Source: Anaerotignum sp. MB30-C6 (GTDB lineage Bacteria; Bacillota; Clostridia; Lachnospirales; Anaerotignaceae). From it: a stretch of 64,000 nt of DNA. A program made the position numbers and the translations under genes. Where the stretch lies: assembly GCF_030908465.1 (NCBI RefSeq), contig NZ_CP133078.1, positions 2,046,001 through 2,110,000 of the forward strand, written 5' to 3'. The notes beneath the pieces are model-generated. The model was not told the origin of the DNA. It made no database searches and saw only the letters and a program-made list of their open reading frames with translations. Positions 10,396 to 63,164 of this stretch are shown here, piece by piece; position 1 is the first letter of the stretch; each line of letters opens with the position of its first letter.

Positions 10396-10621
10396 TGATA
10401 AAAACAGTGATAAGGAATAGTAAAAAAGTGCCCTTGCCCATAGAAAATAGGCGGTTGATGCAAGCCTTGGCAAACCTTTTTGAACCCACCTCTTGAGTTC
10501 CGTAGGGAAAATGCGGCGTGCTTGGCGTTAACAAGTTTGAGAGGACGGAATTTTTCCGTCAATTAGGGTGGCACCGCCAATTCGACCTTGGTCCCTTTTT
10601 TGGGATTCAGGTCTTTTTTTG
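10396..10621 (+). promoter_or_regulatory. T-box leader (tRNA-Pro sensing) controlling proS
   Basis: The conserved T-box sequence AGGGTGGCACCGC lies at 10565-10577 and is followed at once by an intrinsic terminator (10584-10620: GACC..TCCC stem, T6 loop, GGGA..GGTC, then T7). This is the standard T-box layout, in which uncharged tRNA pairs with the leader and prevents termination. The gene downstream is prolyl-tRNA synthetase, so the tRNA should be tRNA-Pro. A candidate specifier is a CCC (or shifted CCA) codon at about 10485-10488 in the 3' half of stem I (TGAACCCACC). The exact specifier needs a folded model. Confidence 0.9.
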
Positions 10622-19489: not shown

Positions 19490-20620
19490 TTAAGACAAAC
19501 GCTCTTTAAAATCCACATATCCAAACTTTCTGATTGTACGAATGCTTCCATCTCCTTGAAGTAATGCGATGGATGGCAGACACATTCCGTTAAACGTATT
19601 ATTTTTAACCATAGAATAAATGGCCATATCCTCAAAAATAAGCTTATCCCCAACGAAAAGGGGCTGCTCAAAGGAATAGTCCCCTATTACATCACCTGAC
19701 AAGCAGGTTGCGCCCGCCAAACGATAGGTAAAGGGCTTTTCACCTGCTTCACCACTCTGCCACAAAGGCGGACGGTATGGCATCTCAATGACGTCAGGCA
19801 TATGGCAAGCGGCAGAAGCATCCAAAATTGCAATTTCTATGCCATTTTGTACCACGTCCAACACGGAAGCCACCAAATACCCTGCCTGAAGGGCTACTGC
19901 CTCTCCTGGCTCCAAATAAACTTCCACGTTATATTTTTTTTTGAAATGTACAATACAATCTACCAGTGCGTCCCGATCATAGTCGGCACGGGTGATATGA
20001 TGACCACCGCCAAAATTCACCCACTTCATTTGTGGCAAGAATTCACCGAACTTTTCTTCCACCGCCGCTAGAGTTTCAATAAGGGCATCACTATTTTGTT
20101 CGCACAATGTGTGAAAATGCAGACCCTCAATACCCTCCAATAAATCAGGACGAAAATTCTCCCTTGTCACTCCAAGGCGAGAACCTTCCGCACAAGGGTC
20201 GTAAATACCATGGTCTTGAGTAGAATGCTGTGGATTTATGCGAATACCGCAACTTCTCCCTGCTCTGAGGGCTTTTTCCCTATATTTTTGCCACTGGACA
20301 AAAGAATTAAAGGAAATATGGTCACAGAGTTCAACAATCTCGTCAAACTCTTTTTCCATATACGCCCCAGAAAAGATATGGGTTTCTTTTCCCATTTCCT
20401 GAAAACCAAGCTTTGCCTCAAACAAACCACTGGCAGTTGTTCCTGCAAGATAGCCCCCAATTAGGGGATACACAGCGAACATAGAAAAGGCTTTTTGTGC
20501 CAGCAAAATTTTACAGCCGGCACGCTCCGCCACATCCTTTAGTATAACAAGGTTTTCAACCAAACGGTTTTCATCTACAACGTAACAAGGGGTTTCTACC
20601 GATAACAATACCTTTTCCAT
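19490..20620 (-). CDS. nspC: Carboxynorspermidine/carboxyspermidine decarboxylase
   Basis: This PLP enzyme of the alanine-racemase fold decarboxylates carboxyspermidine (or carboxynorspermidine), giving spermidine (or norspermidine). The PLP lysine is probably Lys43 in LLAQKAFSMF. Other marks are INPQHSTQDHGIYDPCAEGSR (in two adjoining pieces), the FGGGHHIT loop that holds PLP phosphate, and the C-terminal DASAACHMPDV and YSMVKNNTFNGM segments. At 376 aa it is normal for the family. It overlaps the preceding dehydrogenase gene by TAATG, so the two are translationally coupled and act in sequence. Confidence 0.93.
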   Translation of the reverse strand: MEKVLLSVETPCYVVDENRLVENLVILKDVAERAGCKILLAQKAFSMFAVYPLIGGYLAGTTASGLFEAKLGFQEMGKETHIFSGAYMEKEFDEIVELCDHISFNSFVQWQKYREKALRAGRSCGIRINPQHSTQDHGIYDPCAEGSRLGVTRENFRPDLLEGIEGLHFHTLCEQNSDALIETLAAVEEKFGEFLPQMKWVNFGGGHHITRADYDRDALVDCIVHFKKKYNVEVYLEPGEAVALQAGYLVASVLDVVQNGIEIAILDASAACHMPDVIEMPYRPPLWQSGEAGEKPFTYRLAGATCLSGDVIGDYSFEQPLFVGDKLIFEDMAIYSMVKNNTFNGMCLPSIALLQGDGSIRTIRKFGYVDFKERLS

Positions 20621-21822
20621 TAGTCCACCAACTCGGGGTTAAAGTCTTCAACCCAAGGCAAGCCCCATTTGTTCAGTGCATCCATGAATGGGTCTGGATC
20701 AAACTCTTCCATATTCCATACACCTGGTTTGTTCCATGTACCATTCATTACAAGCATTGCGCCAATCATAGCAGGTACGCCTGTGGTGTAAGAAACTGCC
20801 TGACTTCCTACTTCCTTGTAGCATTCCTGATGGTCACAAATGTTATATAAGTAATAGCTCTTCTCTTTGCCATCTTTCACACCCTGGAAGATGCAACCGA
20901 TGTTTGTTTTGCCTACAGTACGAGGGCCAAGGCTTGCAGGGTCAGGCAATACTGCCTTTAAGAACTGCAAAGGAACAATCTGCTGTCCTTCAAATTCAAT
21001 GGGCTCGATGGAGGTCATACCTACGTTTTCCAAGCATTTCAAGTGTGTCAAGTAGCTTTGACCAAATGTCATAAAGAAACGGATACGTTTGATTCCCTTA
21101 ATATTTAAGCCCAAGCTTTCCAATTCTTCATGGTGCAAAAGATACATATCCTTTTTGCCAACTTCCGCAAAGTCATACTCACGCTTAATTTCCATAGGCT
21201 CAGTTTCTACCCATTCACCGTTTTCCCAGTAGCTACCGTTGGCAGTTACTTCACGGATATTGATTTCAGGGTTAAAGTTTGTTGCAAAAGGATAGCCATG
21301 GTCACCGCCATTACAGTCAAGGATGTCGATATAATTGATTTCATCAAAATGATGTTTTTGAGCATAAGCAGAGAAAACACCAGTAACACCAGGGTCAAAG
21401 CCACTACCCAAAAGGGCGCAGATACCCGCTTCTTTAAACTTTTCACGATATGCCCACTGCCATTTGTATTCAAACTTTGCAGTATCCAAAGGTTCGTAGT
21501 TTGCAGTATCGATGTAGTGGGTTTTTGTAATCAAGCAAGCATCCATAATGGTCAAGTCCTGATATGGCAATGCAAGATTTAAAACAACGTCAGGTTTAAA
21601 CGCATTAATCAGTGCAACCAATTCATCTACATTATCTGCATCCACCTGAGCTGTCTGGATTTTTGTTTTTGTCGTTCCCTCAAGCTGTTCTTTCAAGGCG
21701 TCACACTTAGATTTCGTACGGCTGGCAATCATGATTTCCTCAAAAACTTCACTGTTCTGGCAGCATTTATGGATTGCAACACCAGCAACACCGCCACAAC
21801 CAATAATCATACATTTTCCCAT
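20620..21822 (-). CDS. Carboxynorspermidine/carboxyspermidine dehydrogenase (saccharopine dehydrogenase family)
   Basis: This enzyme joins aspartate semialdehyde to putrescine (or diaminopropane) with NAD(P)H to make a carboxylated triamine. The Rossmann start is MIIGCGGVAGVAIHKC; other family marks are NLALPYQDLTIMDACL, ALLGSGFDPGVTGVFSAYA and the C-terminal SYTTGVPAMIGAML. At 400 aa it matches the bacterial carboxynorspermidine synthase group rather than lysine-forming saccharopine dehydrogenases. The adjacent nspC decides between these readings. It is the fifth gene of the polyamine operon, 13 nt after speB. Confidence 0.92.
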   Translation of the reverse strand: MGKCMIIGCGGVAGVAIHKCCQNSEVFEEIMIASRTKSKCDALKEQLEGTTKTKIQTAQVDADNVDELVALINAFKPDVVLNLALPYQDLTIMDACLITKTHYIDTANYEPLDTAKFEYKWQWAYREKFKEAGICALLGSGFDPGVTGVFSAYAQKHHFDEINYIDILDCNGGDHGYPFATNFNPEINIREVTANGSYWENGEWVETEPMEIKREYDFAEVGKKDMYLLHHEELESLGLNIKGIKRIRFFMTFGQSYLTHLKCLENVGMTSIEPIEFEGQQIVPLQFLKAVLPDPASLGPRTVGKTNIGCIFQGVKDGKEKSYYLYNICDHQECYKEVGSQAVSYTTGVPAMIGAMLVMNGTWNKPGVWNMEEFDPDPFMDALNKWGLPWVEDFNPELVD

Positions 21823-21835
21823 TTTCTCGTCTCCT

Positions 21836-22690
21836 TTACTTTGTCATCTGCAATAATATTTCTCTCGTAATTTTACAAGCAACGGCAGTGGAACTACCGC
21901 TTTGATCATAGTGAGGTGAAAGCTCATTGATGTCACAGCCAACAATGTTTAGTTGATGCAACTGCATAACGGCTTCCAACAATTCTTTAAATGTGATACC
22001 CCCTGCTTCCGTGGTGCCTGTTCCACAAAATATGGAAGGATCCAACACATCAAGGTCTAAGGAAAAATACACTGGCTTCCCCTTAAGGTTTGCTACAGCT
22101 TCTGAAAATCCCGTTAGATCGAATTTATGCAAACAAGTATGTTCCTTTGCAAAGTCAAACTCATATTTTTCACCACTACGGATGCCAAATTGATGAATTC
22201 TACCGTCTCCTACCAAGTTCCACACCTGCCTCATTACCGTAGAGTGGGAAAGAGCCTCTCCCATATACTCTGTACGCAAGTCTGTATGGGCATCCAAGTG
22301 GATGATATGCAAATCGGGATAATGCTTTACCACGGCACGCATAGCACCCAATGTAATCAAATGCTCTCCGCCTAGCATTACAAATTTTTTCCCGTCATTA
22401 AGAATTTGCTCCGTATAGTTTTGTGTCATCTCCAGCACCTTCTCCGTGTTACCAAAGGGAAGTTCCAAATCTCCCCCATCGAAAATTTCATAGTCCACAA
22501 GATCACGGTCACTATAGGGTGAGTATGTTTCAATACCGAAAGATTCATTCCGAATGGCCGAGGGGCCAAAGCGAGTACCCGGGCGAAAAGAAGCTGTTCC
22601 ATCAAAGGGTACGCCAAAGAGCACAACTTCTGCCTTTTCATAATCGGCCTCACAAGCCAGAAATGTCTGTATATTTTTATTCATTTTCAA
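21836..22690 (-). CDS. speB: Agmatinase (ureohydrolase)
   Basis: This enzyme hydrolyses agmatine to putrescine and urea. The binuclear manganese motifs of the arginase family are intact: GGEHLIT, HLDAHTDLR and SLDLDVLDPS. FGVPFDGTASFRPGTRFGP near the N-terminus and the C-terminal VGCDINELSPHYD are also typical. At 284 aa it matches bacterial agmatinases. It overlaps speE by 14 nt, a sign of coupled translation. The operon also has the SpeA-type decarboxylase that would make agmatine, which supports agmatine over other guanidino substrates. Confidence 0.92.
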   Translation of the reverse strand: MKMNKNIQTFLACEADYEKAEVVLFGVPFDGTASFRPGTRFGPSAIRNESFGIETYSPYSDRDLVDYEIFDGGDLELPFGNTEKVLEMTQNYTEQILNDGKKFVMLGGEHLITLGAMRAVVKHYPDLHIIHLDAHTDLRTEYMGEALSHSTVMRQVWNLVGDGRIHQFGIRSGEKYEFDFAKEHTCLHKFDLTGFSEAVANLKGKPVYFSLDLDVLDPSIFCGTGTTEAGGITFKELLEAVMQLHQLNIVGCDINELSPHYDQSGSSTAVACKITREILLQMTK

Positions 22691-23528
22691 GCATCTCCTT
22701 TACATAAGTGGGTAGAGCAAAAGCGCCCACATGCAAATTCGTGTTGTAATAACGAGTTGCAATGCCTACCTTTTTCCAAACATCGGCCTTTAAGTCATTT
22801 AAGGGATGCAACGCTTTTGATGCAAACCCAAATAACCAATGCCCCGAAGGATATGTGGGAATGTGTGCTTGATAAACACAGCTAATGGGGAATGCGTGGG
22901 CAATACGCCTATGGGCTGATTTCATCGCCTTTGCATCTTCATTGTAAAAAGGACTTTCATGCTGATTTATCAATATCCCTTTCTCCGTAAGTGCGTTATA
23001 ACAGTTACCATAAAATTCTTTGGTAAACAGCACCTCTCCAGGTCCAAAAGGGTCTGTGGAGTCCACAATGATTAGGTCGTAAGCGTTCTCTGCACGACGG
23101 ACAAATTTCAAGCCGTCTTGAAAATGAAGGCGTACCCGTGGATCTTCGAAGCCACAGGCAGTTTTGGGCAAATACTCTTTGCAAACTGCCACCACACGCT
23201 CATCAATTTCCACCACATCCATCGTTTCAATGCCACTGTATTTGCTAAGCTCACGCAACACGCCGCCATCCCCTGCACCAATTACCAGCACATTTTTCAC
23301 ATCAGGGTTCACAGCCATTGCTGTATGGGTAATCATTTCATGATAAATAAATTCATCCCGCTCAGTCAGCATCATAATTCCGTCTAAGGTTAAAAACCGA
23401 CCAAATTCAGGAGAGTCAAATATAGATATTTCCTGATAATTACTCTTTTCATAGTGGAGTTGCGTGTTTACTTTCAAAGAAAAGCGTACATTTGGTGTAT
23501 GATATTCACTGTACCATAAGTCGTCCAT
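22677..23528 (-). CDS. speE: Spermidine synthase (aminopropyltransferase)
   Basis: This enzyme transfers the aminopropyl group of decarboxylated SAM to putrescine, giving spermidine and methylthioadenosine. The N-terminal beta domain (LWYSEYHTPNVRFSLKV) is followed by the SAM-type fold with VLVIGAGDGGVLRELSKY. The catalytic aspartate region is IIVDSTDPFGPGEVLFTKEF, with GILINQHESPFY after it. At 283 aa it is standard for bacterial SpeE. It lies 1 nt after speA's stop, in the same operon as speD, which makes its co-substrate. Confidence 0.94.
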   Translation of the reverse strand: MDDLWYSEYHTPNVRFSLKVNTQLHYEKSNYQEISIFDSPEFGRFLTLDGIMMLTERDEFIYHEMITHTAMAVNPDVKNVLVIGAGDGGVLRELSKYSGIETMDVVEIDERVVAVCKEYLPKTACGFEDPRVRLHFQDGLKFVRRAENAYDLIIVDSTDPFGPGEVLFTKEFYGNCYNALTEKGILINQHESPFYNEDAKAMKSAHRRIAHAFPISCVYQAHIPTYPSGHWLFGFASKALHPLNDLKADVWKKVGIATRYYNTNLHVGAFALPTYVKEMLENE

Positions 23529-23529
23529 T

Positions 23530-24978
23530 TCATTCTCCTTTCAGTACATTCAGATGCCTGACATCCATGCTCTCAGGCCCCGTTAGGGAACAGCCCTTTT
23601 CTTTTGCATACTGGATATAGGCAATAATTTCTGGAGTTATCTGCTCTCCTGGCGCAAGAATGGGAATTCCAGGGGGGTAACACATTACAAACTCTGCACA
23701 AACTCTACCTCCGCATTCCTCAAGGGGAAGGCTAACTTTTTCGGCGTAAAACGCAATCTGTGGAGAAGTATTTACTGTTGGGCTGATATACTCACTATCT
23801 AACATGTTTTTATTGTCATTTTTATAAATTCGTCTAATTTCAGAAAGGGCACTAATCAAGCGTTCGATGTTTTTATTTTTATCTCCTACGGAAATATAAG
23901 CAAGTACGTTGCCCAAATCTCCGAATTCAATTTGTATGCCATACTCGTCACGAAGCAAGTCGTAAACTTCAATGCCCGCAAGACCCAGTTGCAAAGTGTT
24001 TATGGAAAGCTTCGTTGTATCAAAGTCAAAGACGCTATCACCATTAATCAATTCCTTGGAATAAGCATAATAATCGCCGATGGCGTTGATTTCATCCCTT
24101 GCATATTGGGCAAACTTTTTCACTTTCTCAAAGGTCTCCTCCCCCCACAGTGCAAGGTTTCGCCTTGAAATATCTAGGCTAGAAAGTAGCAGGTAAGAAC
24201 CACTAGTGGTTTGGGTAAGGTTGATGATTTTTCTAACGTAGTTTTTATTTACCTTTTCACCACAAAGTAAGATTGAACTTTGTGTCAGGGAACCACCAGA
24301 CTTATGCATACTTACCGCCGCCATATCTGCTCCAGCGGCCATGGCAGAAATAGGCATGTCCTTACCGAAGTAGAAATGAGTTCCGTGGGCCTCATCTACA
24401 AGAACCCGTAACCCCTTTTCATGGGCAATTTCGGTTATTTGCTTTAAATCGGAGCAAATACCATAGTAGGTTGGGTTGTTTACCAAGATTGCTTTGGCAG
24501 TGGGATGCTCCTCAATGGTACGCTTTACATCCCGCAGGGACATACCCAAGGCTATCCCCAGCTTTTTATCCGTTTGAGGGTTGATGTAAACGGGTACAGC
24601 ACCACAAAGCACCAGAGAGTTTATTATACTTTGGTGTACGTTTCGGGGAAGAATAATCTTATCTCCACTTTTTACGCTGGAAAGAATCATAGCCTGTACA
24701 GCAGAGGTTGTACCACCCACCATGAAAAATGCATGTGCTGCACCGAAAGCCTCAGCGGCAAGCTCCTCTGCTTCTTTGATGACACTTACAGGGTGGCAGA
24801 GATTATCCAACGGCTTCATAGAGTTCACATCCACCGACAAACACTTCTCACCTAAAAATTCTGTCAGCTGGGGGTTGCCCTTTCCGTGTTTATGCCCAGG
24901 CACGTCAAAGGGTACCAAGCGTTCGTGACGCATACGCTCCAACGCCTCAAGTAATGGAACTTTATTCTGATCTTTCAA
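23530..24978 (-). CDS. speA: Arginine decarboxylase (fold-III, short Orn/Lys/Arg decarboxylase)
   Basis: This PLP enzyme is predicted to make agmatine from arginine. The PLP lysine is Lys226 in [11 protein letters not shown], with the preceding [11 protein letters not shown] cofactor-binding segment. At 482 aa it belongs to the short Bacillus SpeA-like group, without the N-terminal wing domain of E. coli decarboxylases. Arginine rather than lysine or ornithine is favoured because agmatinase is encoded in the same operon. The start is TTG (24976-24978), supported by AGGAGG with 7-nt spacing, and overlaps the stop of speD as TTGA. Confidence 0.9.
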
Positions 24979-25754
24979 CGCTTTACCTCCTGATAAATAT
25001 TAGAGCCGCTAAAAATTTCAATCATTTCACGGCGTAATGAATTCGTAATATCCAAACGGATTTGGGGTGGAATTTCGTAAACATCGGAATTAAATAAATA
25101 ATTCTGCAGCACCAAATCCTTAATCAGCATCTTTGTATGAAAAATATTAGACTGATATATATTTACATCAATGGCATCGTATTTTTGCAAAACATCGTTA
25201 TCGATATAATCCTGAATGGAAGTAATATTGTGGTCGATAAACAGTTTTTGCCCTTCCATATCTCGAGTAAAGCCCCTCACACGATAGTCCATGGTGATAA
25301 TGTCCGAATCAAAGCTTCCAATCAAAAAATCCAAAGTGGATAGTGGTGTGATTTCGCCACAAGTAGCTACATCAATATCCACACGAAAAGTAGCAATGGA
25401 AGTATCTGGGTGGTACTCCGGATAGGTGTGTACGGTGACGTGGCTTTTATCCAGATGTGCCACAACCGTTTCCCCACTACGAGTCTTCACCATACTTTCC
25501 TCGGCAATCAAAAAAGTTACACTGGCACCTTGGGGTTCATAGTCTTGCTTCGAAATATTAAGCACAGTTGCGCCAATCATTTCAGTAAGTTTCGTCAATA
25601 TTGCAGTCAGACGCTCGGAATTATACTGCTCATTAATATACTTAATATAATCCTGTTGTTCTCTAGCCGTTTTAGCATAACAGATGTCATAAATATTAAA
25701 ACTCAACGATTTTGTGAGATTATTAAAACCATATAATTTCATTTTTTCAACCAT
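24975..25754 (-). CDS. speD: S-adenosylmethionine decarboxylase proenzyme, E. coli-type
   Basis: This pyruvoyl enzyme makes decarboxylated SAM, the aminopropyl donor for SpeE. It is the longer bacterial class (259 aa). Self-cleavage should occur at Lys103-Ser104 in [14 protein letters not shown], converting Ser104 into the pyruvoyl group. The proton-donor cysteine is probably Cys132 in [12 protein letters not shown]. It is the first gene of the polyamine operon. Its ATG is preceded by GGGGGG with 7-nt spacing, only about 20 nt after the terminator that closes the long leader. Expression of the whole operon must therefore pass through that terminator. Confidence 0.94.
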
Positions 25755-25773
25755 TTAAAATCCCCCCAAGCAA

Positions 25774-25811
25774 TAAAAAAAGATGCACCACAGCATACTA
25801 TGGCACATCTT
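25774..25811 (-). terminator. speD leader: Intrinsic terminator (attenuator) in the polyamine operon leader
   Basis: On the minus strand a 14-bp stem (25798-25811 with 25780-25793, three G-U pairs, loop TATG) is followed by T7. It sits 19 nt before the speD start codon, with no room for a promoter between, so it either attenuates the operon or ends a separate small RNA with read-through. Confidence 0.9.
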
Positions 25812-26154
25812 ATAAACGTTCAAATAAATTTGGGTACGAACCAAGAATCTCATCTCTACTGCTTGCAATAGAGGGCTTCTCGCCTGCTACCTAAATGTTT
25901 TCAGAGTCTATATAGTAAGAACTACTTTTACTACTCCTTATTATTGACCGTTTCACAAGTGTGTACCCTAGTACACTTGGTTATGAAGTAACCAACTGGC
26001 AATTGAGTTGCCAACTTATAAAAGTTGCGCTCTTAACGCAATCAATAATGTGAAGCAAAGCTTCACAATCGGCAGTTGACCCGGCTGTCCGTATGGCCTT
26101 GAGTTTCAAAGTTGAAACTGGTCAAAAGTGTCCTCGCTATATGCGATTGAAAAC
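25812..26154 (-). ncRNA. Structured leader RNA of the polyamine operon, class not recognised
   Basis: About 340 nt between the promoter and terminator form many perfect short inverted repeats. In transcription order: UCGC/GCGA (26134-26146); a long-range UUGACC/GGUCAA pair (26120-26125 with 26076-26081) enclosing AGUUUCA/UGAAACU (26102-26119); UGUGAAGC/GCUUCACA (26049-26067); UUGCG/CGCAA (26025-26041); AACUU/AAGUU (26013-26026); UGGCAA/UUGCCA (25997-26013); UUGGUUA/UAACCAA (25977-25995); GUGUAC/GUACAC (25961-25976); and a 9-bp stem at 25854-25873. Six hairpins are packed nearly end to end in about 107 nt. I see no T-box, SAM, lysine or c-di-GMP consensus. A large known ncRNA class such as raiA cannot be excluded by eye. 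Confidence 0.7.
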
Positions 26155-26160
26155 AGGCTT

Positions 26161-26190
26161 ATTTTAAAACAAAACATCATAGTTTGTCAA
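26161..26190 (-). promoter_or_regulatory. Promoter of the polyamine operon leader
   Basis: On the minus strand TTGACA (26185-26190) and TAAAAT (26161-26166) are separated by 18 nt. The start of transcription would be near 26154, giving a leader of about 400 nt. Confidence 0.75.
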
Positions 26191-26308
26191 TAACTTTTTC
26201 AAATTTTCTTTAATTTTCTTTTTTTTTAGCTGAAAACCCCTTCAAGAAACTGGACTTATTCTGCCTTAACTGGTCATTTTGCCTTTTTTGTGATACAATC
26301 TAAAATAG

Positions 26309-26314
26309 TATAAT
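26309..26314 (+). promoter_or_regulatory. Minus-10 box of the LysR-type regulator gene
   Basis: A perfect TATAAT lies 36 nt before the ATG of the divergent LysR gene. A matching -35 is poor. Confidence 0.45.
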
Positions 26315-26349
26315 AATCTAAAAATACGAAAGATAAAGGTGATTTCATT

Positions 26350-27264
26350 ATGCAGTTTAAAGCATTGGAATACTTAGAAGCAATTTATAAGTATAAAAAC
26401 TTTACAAAAGCGGCGGAAGCACTTTTTGTTTCTCAGCCTGCTGTCTCTGCTTCCGTGCGAAAGCTTGAAGAAGAGTATAACATGAAGCTTGTGATAAGGA
26501 CGCCAAAAAAAGTGCTTTTCACCCCCGAAGGTGAGGCTTTTGTTCAAAAAGTAATGCCTATTTTAGATGAACTACGTGCCATAGAGTCGGAGATGCTGTC
26601 AAAAAGCCGAAATCAGAAAAAAACGTTGCGGCTGGGACTTTCCCCCACGGCACCTCCCGAAATTGTACACGGAATTTACCAACACTTCCTACCATCCTTA
26701 TCGGACAACGAAGAGGTTTTTTTCGATGAGGGCGGTGCGTATTACCACATTACGAAAATCACAAATGGCGAAGTGGATGTTGCAATTAACGTGATTCCAG
26801 AAAACATCGGGGAATTTCCAGTTGCGTCTATCCCATTGTATCAACAAGAAATTTGCCTTTTAGTACGGGAAGATAGCCAGCTGGCAGCCTATGATAAAAT
26901 TCCTATACAAATGCTAGACTCTACACCCATTACCAGCCTAGGGGCTTCTTCTTATTTGCCAAAACGCTTGGAAATGGAGGCTGAAAAAAGAAATATTCAC
27001 CTGAAAGTTGCATCCAAGCATTTGCAACAAACCAGCTATATCGAGGAAATACTTTTGGGAGGCAGTTCGGGTATCATAAACGTTGATCATAACAATACGC
27101 CCCGTGCCCTTTATGCCCACAAACCTTTAGTTACAAGACCTTTTCAAGAGCCAATGTTTCTGGATATAGGTATTTTGTACCGAAAAGAGGGACATATGCA
27201 ATCTTTAACAAAAAAAATTCTTGATTTTATTGAAGATGTAGCAAAGCATTGCAAGCAACCTTAG
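26350..27264 (+). CDS. LysR-type transcriptional regulator
   Basis: This is a DNA-binding regulator with an N-terminal winged helix-turn-helix (FTKAAEALFVSQPAVSASVRKLEE, in two adjoining pieces, about 18-41) and a periplasmic-binding-like effector domain (about 90-300). At 304 aa it is standard. LysR proteins commonly control the divergent neighbour, so the polyamine operon, or the dehydrogenase gene downstream, is a possible target. The inducer is unknown. The gene ends before a terminator and is monocistronic. Confidence 0.93.
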   Translation: MQFKALEYLEAIYKYKNFTKAAEALFVSQPAVSASVRKLEEEYNMKLVIRTPKKVLFTPEGEAFVQKVMPILDELRAIESEMLSKSRNQKKTLRLGLSPTAPPEIVHGIYQHFLPSLSDNEEVFFDEGGAYYHITKITNGEVDVAINVIPENIGEFPVASIPLYQQEICLLVREDSQLAAYDKIPIQMLDSTPITSLGASSYLPKRLEMEAEKRNIHLKVASKHLQQTSYIEEILLGGSSGIINVDHNNTPRALYAHKPLVTRPFQEPMFLDIGILYRKEGHMQSLTKKILDFIEDVAKHCKQP

Positions 27265-41773: not shown

Positions 41774-41962
41774 TCTGTACCTTCACCTGAAAGCTTTACT
41801 TCGACGGCGGTCTCTTTACGAGACTCTCTCCAGAGTTCCATCCTTACAAGGTTCTTTGTACCTGAAAGTTTCTCCAAAAACGGCTCTTTTGGATTGCTCC
41901 ATCGGTTCTTACCTATTTTTATAAGATCTCCCTTGCATATCAACTGGCCTTATGTAATTTGT
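41774..41962 (-). promoter_or_regulatory. Tandem glycine riboswitch
   Basis: Two consecutive glycine-aptamer patterns are read on the minus strand. Aptamer 1 has GGGAGATC, then ACCGATGGAGCAA and GGAGAAACTTTCAGGTA. Aptamer 2 has CTCTGGAGAGA, then GACCGCCGTCGAAGTAAAGC and CTTTCAGGTGAAGGTACAGAG. The paired CTCTG/CAGAG closing stem and the CTTTCAGG core repeats are diagnostic. The order of promoter, two aptamers, terminator, permease is clear. The sense of control (on or off with glycine) cannot be read with certainty by eye. Confidence 0.88.
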
Positions 41963-62270: not shown

Positions 62271-62389
62271 TTTTCATTAGGAAGTTACGCTTCCTATTTT
62301 TGCCCAACAATATGAAGAGCTTGCTTGCATAACCAGAAATAATTTATATTATCAATGCCTAGGCATTTTCAATACAGAATCAATATCGA

Positions 62390-62590
62390 TTAAGCACGTG
62401 TTACATTTGCAGCCTGAGGGCCTTTAGCACCCTGAACAACTTCAAATTCTACTTCCTGACCTTCTTCTAAAGTCTTGTAACCATCAACCTGAATAGCAGA
62501 GAAGTGAACGAATACGTCGTCTTCACCAGGAACGGAGATGAAACCGAAACCTTTTTCTGCATTGAACCATTTTACTGTACCCTTTTTCAT
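62390..62590 (-). CDS. Cold-shock protein (CspA family)
   Basis: This 66-aa single cold-shock domain binds single-stranded RNA or DNA and acts as an RNA chaperone. RNP1 (KGFGFISV) and RNP2 (VFVHFSAI) are intact, and the N-terminus [13 protein letters not shown] is canonical. It is monocistronic, with a strong promoter, a short 5' leader of about 40 nt, and AGGAGG before the ATG. Unlike E. coli cspA it lacks a long cold-sensing leader, so it may be made constitutively. Confidence 0.97.
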
Positions 62591-62636
62591 TGAATAAATC
62601 CTCCTACATAGATAAATAAAGAACTGTTACACGTCA

Positions 62637-62665
62637 ATAATACCATAAATTTCATATAGTGTCAA
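62637..62665 (-). promoter_or_regulatory. Promoter of the cold-shock gene
   Basis: TTGACA (62660-62665) and TATTAT (62637-62642) with a 17-nt spacer on the minus strand. Confidence 0.82.
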
Positions 62666-62696
62666 CGCAAATTTCCCACTAAATCACTGTTCTCAT

Positions 62697-63164
62697 TTAC
62701 AAAGTTTCATAATTTTCGTCATTTTCTAACGTATTTTTCTGTATTGCATCCCTTGCTAATTGGTCACATCGCTCATTTTCAACATTAGACGCATGACCTT
62801 TTACCCATATAAAGGAAACGCTGTGAATTTCTAATAGTTTTAGCAAGCGTTCCCATAAATCCACGTTAGATGCTTTTTCTTTTTTGTTGCGCATCCAACC
62901 CTGATTACGCCATTTAATGGCCCAACCTTTTTCGATTGCATCCACAACATACTTAGAATCACTATAAAGCTTGACGGCACATGGTTCCTTTAAAGCTTCA
63001 AGCCCTTTAATAACAGCCAACACCTCCATACGATTGTTGGTTGTTTTAAAATACCCCCCCGACAATTCCTTACGGGCAGAGCCATAAAGCATCACAACTC
63101 CATATCCCCCCGGGCCTGGGTTTCCCGAACAAGCACCGTCAGTATATATCGTTACTGTCCTCAT
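62697..63164 (-). CDS. rnhA: Ribonuclease HI
   Basis: This enzyme cuts the RNA strand of RNA-DNA hybrids. The four acidic catalytic residues are in YTDGACSGNPGPGG, NRMEVLAVIKGLE, LYSDSKYVVDAI and ERCDQLARDA; the basic handle WRNQGWMRNKKEKA is also present. About 155 aa from ATG 63162-63164. The frame is open to 63188, but the ATG that overlaps the ispD stop as ATGA is the natural start and shows coupled translation. Confidence 0.94.
   Translation of the reverse strand: MRTVTIYTDGACSGNPGPGGYGVVMLYGSARKELSGGYFKTTNNRMEVLAVIKGLEALKEPCAVKLYSDSKYVVDAIEKGWAIKWRNQGWMRNKKEKASNVDLWERLLKLLEIHSVSFIWVKGHASNVENERCDQLARDAIQKNTLENDENYETL

Follow-up and report, generated by a model that had tools for sequence, protein, structure and literature searches.

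A conserved leader RNA with a terminator and a covarying antiterminator upstream of speD and other polyamine genes: a candidate polyamine switch

The speD locus and its leader

The window analysed here is a stretch of 64,000 nucleotides from Anaerotignum sp. MB30-C6 (NZ_CP133078.1, positions 2,046,001 to 2,110,000), and coordinates refer to the window unless another locus is named. It carries a polyamine operon in the order speD, Arg/Lys decarboxylase, speE, agmatinase, carboxynorspermidine synthase and nspC, of which the part after speD occupies 19490..24978. The genes were assigned as follows.

24975..25754, minus strand: speD, S-adenosylmethionine decarboxylase, first gene of the operon (TIGR03331, 404.5 bits)
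23530-24978, minus strand: Orn/Lys/Arg decarboxylase (NCBIfam/Pfam match)
22677-23528, minus strand: speE (NCBIfam/Pfam match)
21836-22690, minus strand: agmatinase speB (NCBIfam/Pfam match)
20620-21822, minus strand: carboxynorspermidine synthase (419.7 bits, below the model's curated cut-off of 800)
19490-20620, minus strand: nspC decarboxylase (NCBIfam/Pfam match)

The leader of this operon is framed by the following features.

26161..26190, minus strand: promoter of the sigma-A type, TTGACA-18-TAAAAT, with 11/12 matches to the consensus
26134..26146, minus strand: P0, short 5' hairpin TCGC-ATATA-GCGA, from reading of the sequence, conserved within the genus
25854..25873, minus strand: hairpin CUCUA...UAGAG in the variable linker, from the sequence and the predicted fold
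25775..25811, minus strand: intrinsic terminator, 14-bp stem and T tract, read in the sequence and found as terminators in homologues
25761..25767, minus strand: ribosome binding site GGGGGGA, 3' of the terminator, from reading of the sequence

In the window, the -35 box TTGACA is located at 26190-26185 and the -10 box TAAAAT at 26166-26161, with a spacer of 18 nt. The strong promoter that had been placed here by the initial annotation is thus confirmed, and so are the hairpin-rich leader of about 340 nt and the 14-bp terminator close before speD. The leader folds at -122.7 kcal/mol, compared with -95.8 (s.d. 6.2) for dinucleotide shuffles (z = -4.33), and none of 100 shuffles was as low. Ten local hairpins and two long-range helices were counted. 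The terminator stem (25811-25780) has 14 pairs, three of which are G-U, and a 4-nt loop; the T tract runs to 25775/25774, and the ATG of speD (25754) follows the terminator by about 20 nt. Terminator-like sites numbered five, against 0.4 expected from shuffles. According to the comparison with relatives, the position of P0 holds a hairpin of different sequence in other genera too, and the linker after P9 varies in length and sequence among genera.

A divergent gene for a LysR-type regulator (26350-27264, plus strand) faces the leader and might add control at the DNA level. Elsewhere in the window, Rfam matches were obtained for a cspA-type element (62349-62734, minus strand), a glycine riboswitch (41839-41943, minus strand) and a T-box leader (10398-10599, plus strand). 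The last is the only T-box of the window, and a T-box identity of the speD leader (RF00230 with its GGUGGNACCGCG box) was rejected. No SAM riboswitch family was found among the matches up to E = 5 at 25600-26400. The leader was therefore also rejected as a spermidine riboswitch of the SAM-I type, as no SAM family matched at permissive thresholds.

Domain 1 and the Rfam family RF02440

The initial annotation had recognised no known RNA family in the leader. In the covariance-model search of Rfam, this holds for 25774-26068, where no curated family was found, but not for the 5' quarter, where 26124-26069 matches a known family.

26069..26124, minus strand: domain 1, Rfam RF02440 (SpF59 sRNA/ldcC RNA), 70.8 bits against a cut-off of 37.2
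26124-26120 with 26081-26077, minus strand: P1 of domain 1, covaries
within 26069..26124, minus strand: P2 of domain 1, covaries
26098-26096 with 26085-26083, minus strand: P1b of domain 1, GGC/GCC, covaries
26091-26089 with 26072-26070, minus strand: proposed pseudoknot of domain 1, CGG/CCG, invariant

Covariation neither supports nor refutes the pseudoknot, because its three pairs never vary. The family occurs as a single copy in the genome. It is not one of unrelated function, as RF02440 stands before genes of the same pathway. The 5' 54 nt of the leader are a clear member of the family. However, the RF02440 model spans these 54 nt only, is typed as a small-RNA gene and ends before domain 2; it contains neither that domain and P9 nor the antiterminator and terminator. 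The next 150 nt or so (26067-25902) are at least as conserved in relatives. The boundaries of RF02440 hence do not cover the whole conserved element, and the 54-nt "sRNA" annotation seems to capture just the first quarter, at the 5' end, of a regulatory RNA of about 200 nt.

The family appears to be named after the pneumococcal RNA F59. The name ldcC RNA presumably goes back to the motif-discovery study of Weinberg et al. (2017). Under that name the motif was already recognised, and its full extent may be partly described there. A literature search on the ldcC motif, SpF59 and RF02440 returned nothing about function.

Domain 2 and covariation

The remainder of the conserved RNA consists of the following elements.

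26049..26067, minus strand: P3, variable linker hairpin between the domains; 6/6 pairs with changes in both partners across the 76 aligned sequences
25941..26048, minus strand: domain 2, branched, with 95.4% of cells paired; not in Rfam
26048-26040 with 25949-25941, minus strand: P4, enclosing P5 and P6 (alignment model)
26039-26027, minus strand: P5 (alignment model)
26023-26014 with 25960-25951, minus strand: P6, enclosing a genus-specific hairpin, P7 and P8 (alignment model)
26012-25998, minus strand: genus-specific hairpin inside P6
25993-25979, minus strand: P7 (alignment model)
25976-25961, minus strand: P8, variable (alignment model)
25904..25936, minus strand: P9, GAGUAGUAAAAGUA ... 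UUACUAUAUAGACUC, stem with a conserved internal loop and double changes

The packed hairpins of the initial annotation are present, but they are not independent: most are nested within P4, with P7 and P8 within P6. The hairpins thus form one nested structure and not a row of separate units.

The full structure (P1, P2, P1b, pseudoknot, P3, domain 2 and P9) was written on 76 diverse aligned copies. In this alignment, 95.4% of the cells are paired, and 25 pairs are doubly changed against 12.3 in shuffles; the covariation score was reached by none of 500 shuffles. When the partners were slid by one to three columns, pairing fell to 29-47%. An unbiased scan of column pairs placed pairs of P1, P2 and P3 on top and also brought out an exchange of A.C to G.U that lengthens P6. 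For domain 2 and P9, a wider alignment was made with a model that leaves out domain 1 (R2). It includes divergent copies, and 25 of the 37 pairs are doubly changed against 5.7 in shuffles; the fit of this alignment to the model works in favour of the structure, but the signal is lost in the slid controls. P9 is paired in 97.5% (outer part) and 94.2% (inner part) of the cells of this alignment. Compensatory pairs, for which the initial annotation had suggested a search in relatives, are thus strong, and the conserved structured domain with compensatory changes that is expected of a riboswitch is present.

A further possibility is attenuation coupled to the ribosome through a leader peptide, as in the ornithine-arrest leader of speF in E. 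coli. Enterobacterial polyamine genes do use such leaders. Here, however, the spacing of the conserved anchors is not preserved modulo 3, every frame is broken by single-base gaps and hairpin inserts, and no conserved start codon accompanied by a ribosome site was seen. A leader-peptide attenuator was rejected for want of a maintained reading frame, and we regard this explanation as scarcely credible.

In several copies (L010, L016, L021, L066, L191 and others), a hairpin and, after it, an unpaired conserved box (GCAAAUAUU or AAGCARRUAAU) stand 5' of P1. The conserved RNA therefore begins further 5' than modelled. CAGAGUCU, upstream of domain 1, is complementary to the 3' strand of P9, AGACUCUG.

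Distribution

Genomes were searched with the full RNA model (R1) and with R2. R1 matched 48 of 382 genomes of the window's class and 30 of 300 genomes of the class Bacilli; R2 matched 47/373 and 38/399, respectively, in nearly the same genomes. RF02440 matched 41 of 391 genomes of the window's class. In the window, R2 found domain 2 alone at 25902-26048. At least eight genomes of the window's class carry domain 2 with no recognised RF02440 part, which is missing or unrecognisable in L274, L276, L279, L280 and L281 and degenerate in L275, L277 and L278. In all eight (8/8), a polyamine gene lies downstream. Some Bacilli (L194-L196, L287) show a GGGC/GCCC hairpin in place of domain 1. Several relatives are without the RF02440 part but retain P4-P9 together with the polyamine gene, so that P4-P9 seems to be the core of the RNA. 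Rfam searches miss the copies without the RF02440 quarter.

The fold recurs in Clostridia, Bacilli, Negativicutes and one Spirochaete. A blastn search of the leader gave no phage record and one Paenibacillus record from a plasmid collection, of 2.7 Mb. These results show that the leader element is real, conserved and widespread.

This breadth bears on protein-mediated attenuation, where an RNA-binding protein would read the fold and select the terminator or antiterminator by the polyamine level. The large leader with its long invariant stretches could be read by a protein too. Nevertheless, the protein would have to be kept across all four groups, and no dedicated RNA-binding regulator lies beside the leader, the divergent neighbour being a DNA-binding regulator of the LysR type. 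We consider this reading decidedly unlikely.

Some copies are degenerate or reduced and are useful as natural deletions: L132 and L138 have lost most of domain 2 and keep P9, L152 and L156 are without P5, and in L144 P7/P8 is shortened. Large inserts separate the P6/P7 side of domain 2 from the P8 side in L142 (4131-4471) and in L280, where two R1/R2 half-matches stand about 200 nt from each other. The ends of the L280 insert are complementary (GAGCCGAACAGTAATAATCC / GGATTGTTACTGTTCGGCT) and resemble those of a small mobile element, which may have broken the switch.

Genes downstream of the leader RNA

The models gave 197 matches, 190 of them with enough readable downstream sequence. In 187 of the 190 copies, counted with near-identical genomes and hence not as independent events, the next gene downstream is a polyamine gene. 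The first gene is speD in 56 copies, an Orn/Lys/Arg decarboxylase in 53, carboxynorspermidine synthase in 41 and potA in 37; the families were confirmed on examples. A consistent position before the genes of one pathway, as expected of a riboswitch, is thus observed. Spermidine or a diamine is what speD/speE, the carboxyspermidine route, the amino acid decarboxylases and uptake have in common.

In three copies, L009 (737-958), L081 (1765-1985) and L113 (6688-6907), other genes lie downstream. According to Pfam, L009 precedes a carboxylesterase (PF00135), and L081 and L113 precede M28-peptidase lipoproteins. These copies have an extra hairpin after domain 1 and altered P7-P9, and are possibly variants of other specificity.

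All the polyamine genes in question touch polyamine metabolism, and several metabolites of the pathway could signal. A riboswitch of the same mechanism could accordingly respond to SAM, decarboxylated SAM, MTA, arginine or agmatine. The RNA, however, also precedes potA, which serves uptake only, and carboxynorspermidine synthase. The carboxyspermidine route, which that gene opens, uses no SAM, decarboxylated SAM or MTA, and this argues against these three as the signal. Arginine or agmatine would leave the control of uptake and of speD unexplained. The effect of an uptake mutant in S. pneumoniae points to imported polyamine (PMC8540371). One of these compounds as the ligand is therefore a minor possibility in our estimate.

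Terminator and antiterminator

Between the RNA and the gene, 180 of 187 copies have an intrinsic terminator below -8 kcal/mol, compared with 10.1% of shuffles; for a threshold of -12 kcal/mol, the figures are 177 of 187 and 2.0%. Two segments of the leader could form an antiterminator.

25951..25974, minus strand: antiterminator strand 1, the 3' side of P8 and P6, covaries across species
25795..25816, minus strand: antiterminator strand 2, UUUAUAAGAUGUGCCAUAGUAU, overlaps the 5' arm of the terminator

Strand 2 copies the 5' strand of P6 (UUUUAUAAG; UUUAUAAG). In the window, the duplex of 25974-25951 with 25816-25795 amounts to -19.5 kcal/mol. Across 129 non-redundant copies, the 5' arm of the terminator is complementary to the P8/P6 3' strand of its own copy. 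When the arms were swapped among these copies, the mean duplex energy was -15.3 kcal/mol for the own arm and -12.3 kcal/mol for a foreign arm (z = -14.3); restricted to P8, the comparison gave z = -7.9. By gene class, three of four classes were clearly significant, and the carboxynorspermidine synthase class was borderline (p = 0.047). The own arm was better than a shuffled arm of the same locus in 128 of 129 copies. The 3' arm of the terminator, used as a control, gave no signal (z = -0.8). A 24-nt probe slid along the RNA was strong only over the P8/P6 3' side (z = -14.5 and -14.2); windows partly overlapping it gave -7.1 and -5.3, and elsewhere the absolute z did not exceed 2.3. The swap, shuffle, 3'-arm and sliding controls rule out that the signal stems from chance complementarity or from genome composition. 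From species to species P8 changes without constraint, and the terminator arm changes with it, which in these comparisons is the signature expected of an antiterminator.

Simple energy models are equivocal, with the antiterminator as the lowest-energy state for just 20 of the 129 transcripts in truncated form. Within the window, it reaches the minimum only once transcription gets to 25790, and in the full transcript the terminated fold is favoured by 12.8 kcal/mol. The antiterminator claim rests on covariation, because minimum-energy folding alone did not support it. Thus an exclusive antiterminator that reuses a strand of the putative aptamer, as expected of a riboswitch, is indicated by covariation and not by energy. 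The terminator is compatible with P6/P8, whereas the antiterminator is incompatible with either one. The state with the conserved fold is therefore the terminated one, and it would be OFF if a ligand stabilises the fold.

The pneumococcal homologue

A homologue in Streptococcus pneumoniae TIGR4 has been described under several names. SN20 lies between SP_0915 and SP_0916, is 318 nt long and has a predicted promoter and a rho-independent terminator; an FMN switch was suggested for it from a shared motif (PMC2887815). The same RNA is srn235 at 869478-869804 (PMC12323649) and F59 at 869510-869591, flanked by SP_0915 and by SP_0916, a decarboxylase gene (PMC3395615); F59 starts 32 nt past the start of SN20. 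SP_0916 is an arginine decarboxylase (PMC7531197). The homologue accumulates as an RNA of 318-327 nt (PMC2887815, PMC12323649). For the loci of putative Streptococcus type (L191-L193), we predict 328-333 nt from the start site to the T tract, and the core begins 35 nt in. SN20/srn235/F59/Spd_sr49 thus shares with these leaders, as judged by coordinates and lengths and not by the TIGR4 sequence, the site before an arginine decarboxylase gene and the length (318-327 nt reported, 328-333 nt predicted). The literature, in contrast, calls it a small RNA of unknown function.

The initial annotation had offered attenuation by a ligand or a stable ncRNA that reads through into speD. Gene context, the conserved terminators and the covarying antiterminator lend good support to the former. 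The latter is not a separate alternative, because the pneumococcal homologue accumulates as a terminated leader would. An RNA that merely lies upstream of speD and acts in trans on other mRNAs, a reading prompted by the SpF59 sRNA name and by sRNA surveys of the pneumococcus, is very improbable. In S. pneumoniae it is indeed a discrete RNA, placed among candidate sRNAs (PMC12323649), and F59/srn235/SN20 is listed as a lung-fitness sRNA (PMC4387999). That effect, however, could be a polar one on speA. Furthermore, the same-strand position before a polyamine gene in 187 of 190 copies and the antiterminator, which ties the RNA to its own terminator, would both be needless in trans.

When the importer potABCD is deleted, intracellular polyamines are reduced, and qRT-PCR gives an increase of 16.9-fold for speA and 14.4-fold for speE, although RNA-seq of the same mutant reveals no such change for either gene (PMC8540371). 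Under AMXT 1501, which inhibits the importer, genes of the pathway go up 1.4-1.9-fold, whereas treatment with DFMO lowers two of them 1.5-fold (PMC10887117). The direction of expression mostly agrees with an OFF switch. The excerpts of the cited pneumococcal papers propose no polyamine switch, and the main text of a pneumococcal Term-seq paper does not mention the leader.

Proposed mechanism and comparison with other RNA classes

What the analysis shows is a conserved fold, a terminator with a covarying antiterminator, and a setting before polyamine genes. The leader is probably a cis-acting, transcription-terminating OFF switch that senses a polyamine, most likely spermidine; here we infer the ligand, its direct binding and the OFF direction. 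RNA polymerase would start near 26154 and make a structured RNA of about 200 nt, comprising domain 1, P3 and domain 2 with P9. When the polyamine, most likely spermidine, is plentiful, it would bind the RNA and hold P6/P8 together; the terminator (25811-25780) would then form, and the polyamine operon would not be transcribed. When it is scarce, the P8/P6 3' strand (25974-25951) would pair with the 5' arm of the terminator (25816-25795), and polymerase would read through into speD. Polyamines bind RNA non-selectively, which counts against the reading as a polyamine switch, and copies from close genomes are not independent, which limits the evidence for a switch.

Tentatively, domain 2 with P9 might serve as aptamer in a widespread class of polyamine riboswitches that is structurally unrelated to the SAM-I-derived one. 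Domain 1 could then be a separable co-sensor or folding aid, lost or replaced in some lineages.

Polyamines attain millimolar concentrations, with most of the pool in complex with RNA, and before the spermidine report of 2023 no claimed polyamine riboswitch had been accepted (PMC10853860). The class reported then, a variant of SAM-I, likewise precedes polyamine genes (speE, speB, ldcC), acts by transcription termination and lowers expression with spermidine, but it has a four-stem SAM-I fold, unlike the speD leader (PMC10853860). The odc1 and potE motifs are also candidate RNA elements beside polyamine-related genes; their host groups and structures differ from those of the leader, odc1 being one hairpin with a pseudoknot in alpha-proteobacteria, and potE being confined to Veillonella with weak covariation (PMC8632094). 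A survey of RNAs in the human microbiome does not mention polyamine genes.

The class of 2023 is of narrow distribution, and its authors expect further classes (PMC10853860). The leader RNA described here is a common candidate in several Gram-positive groups and one Spirochaete, with a definite switching model. As a polyamine switch, it would explain two published observations in the pneumococcus.
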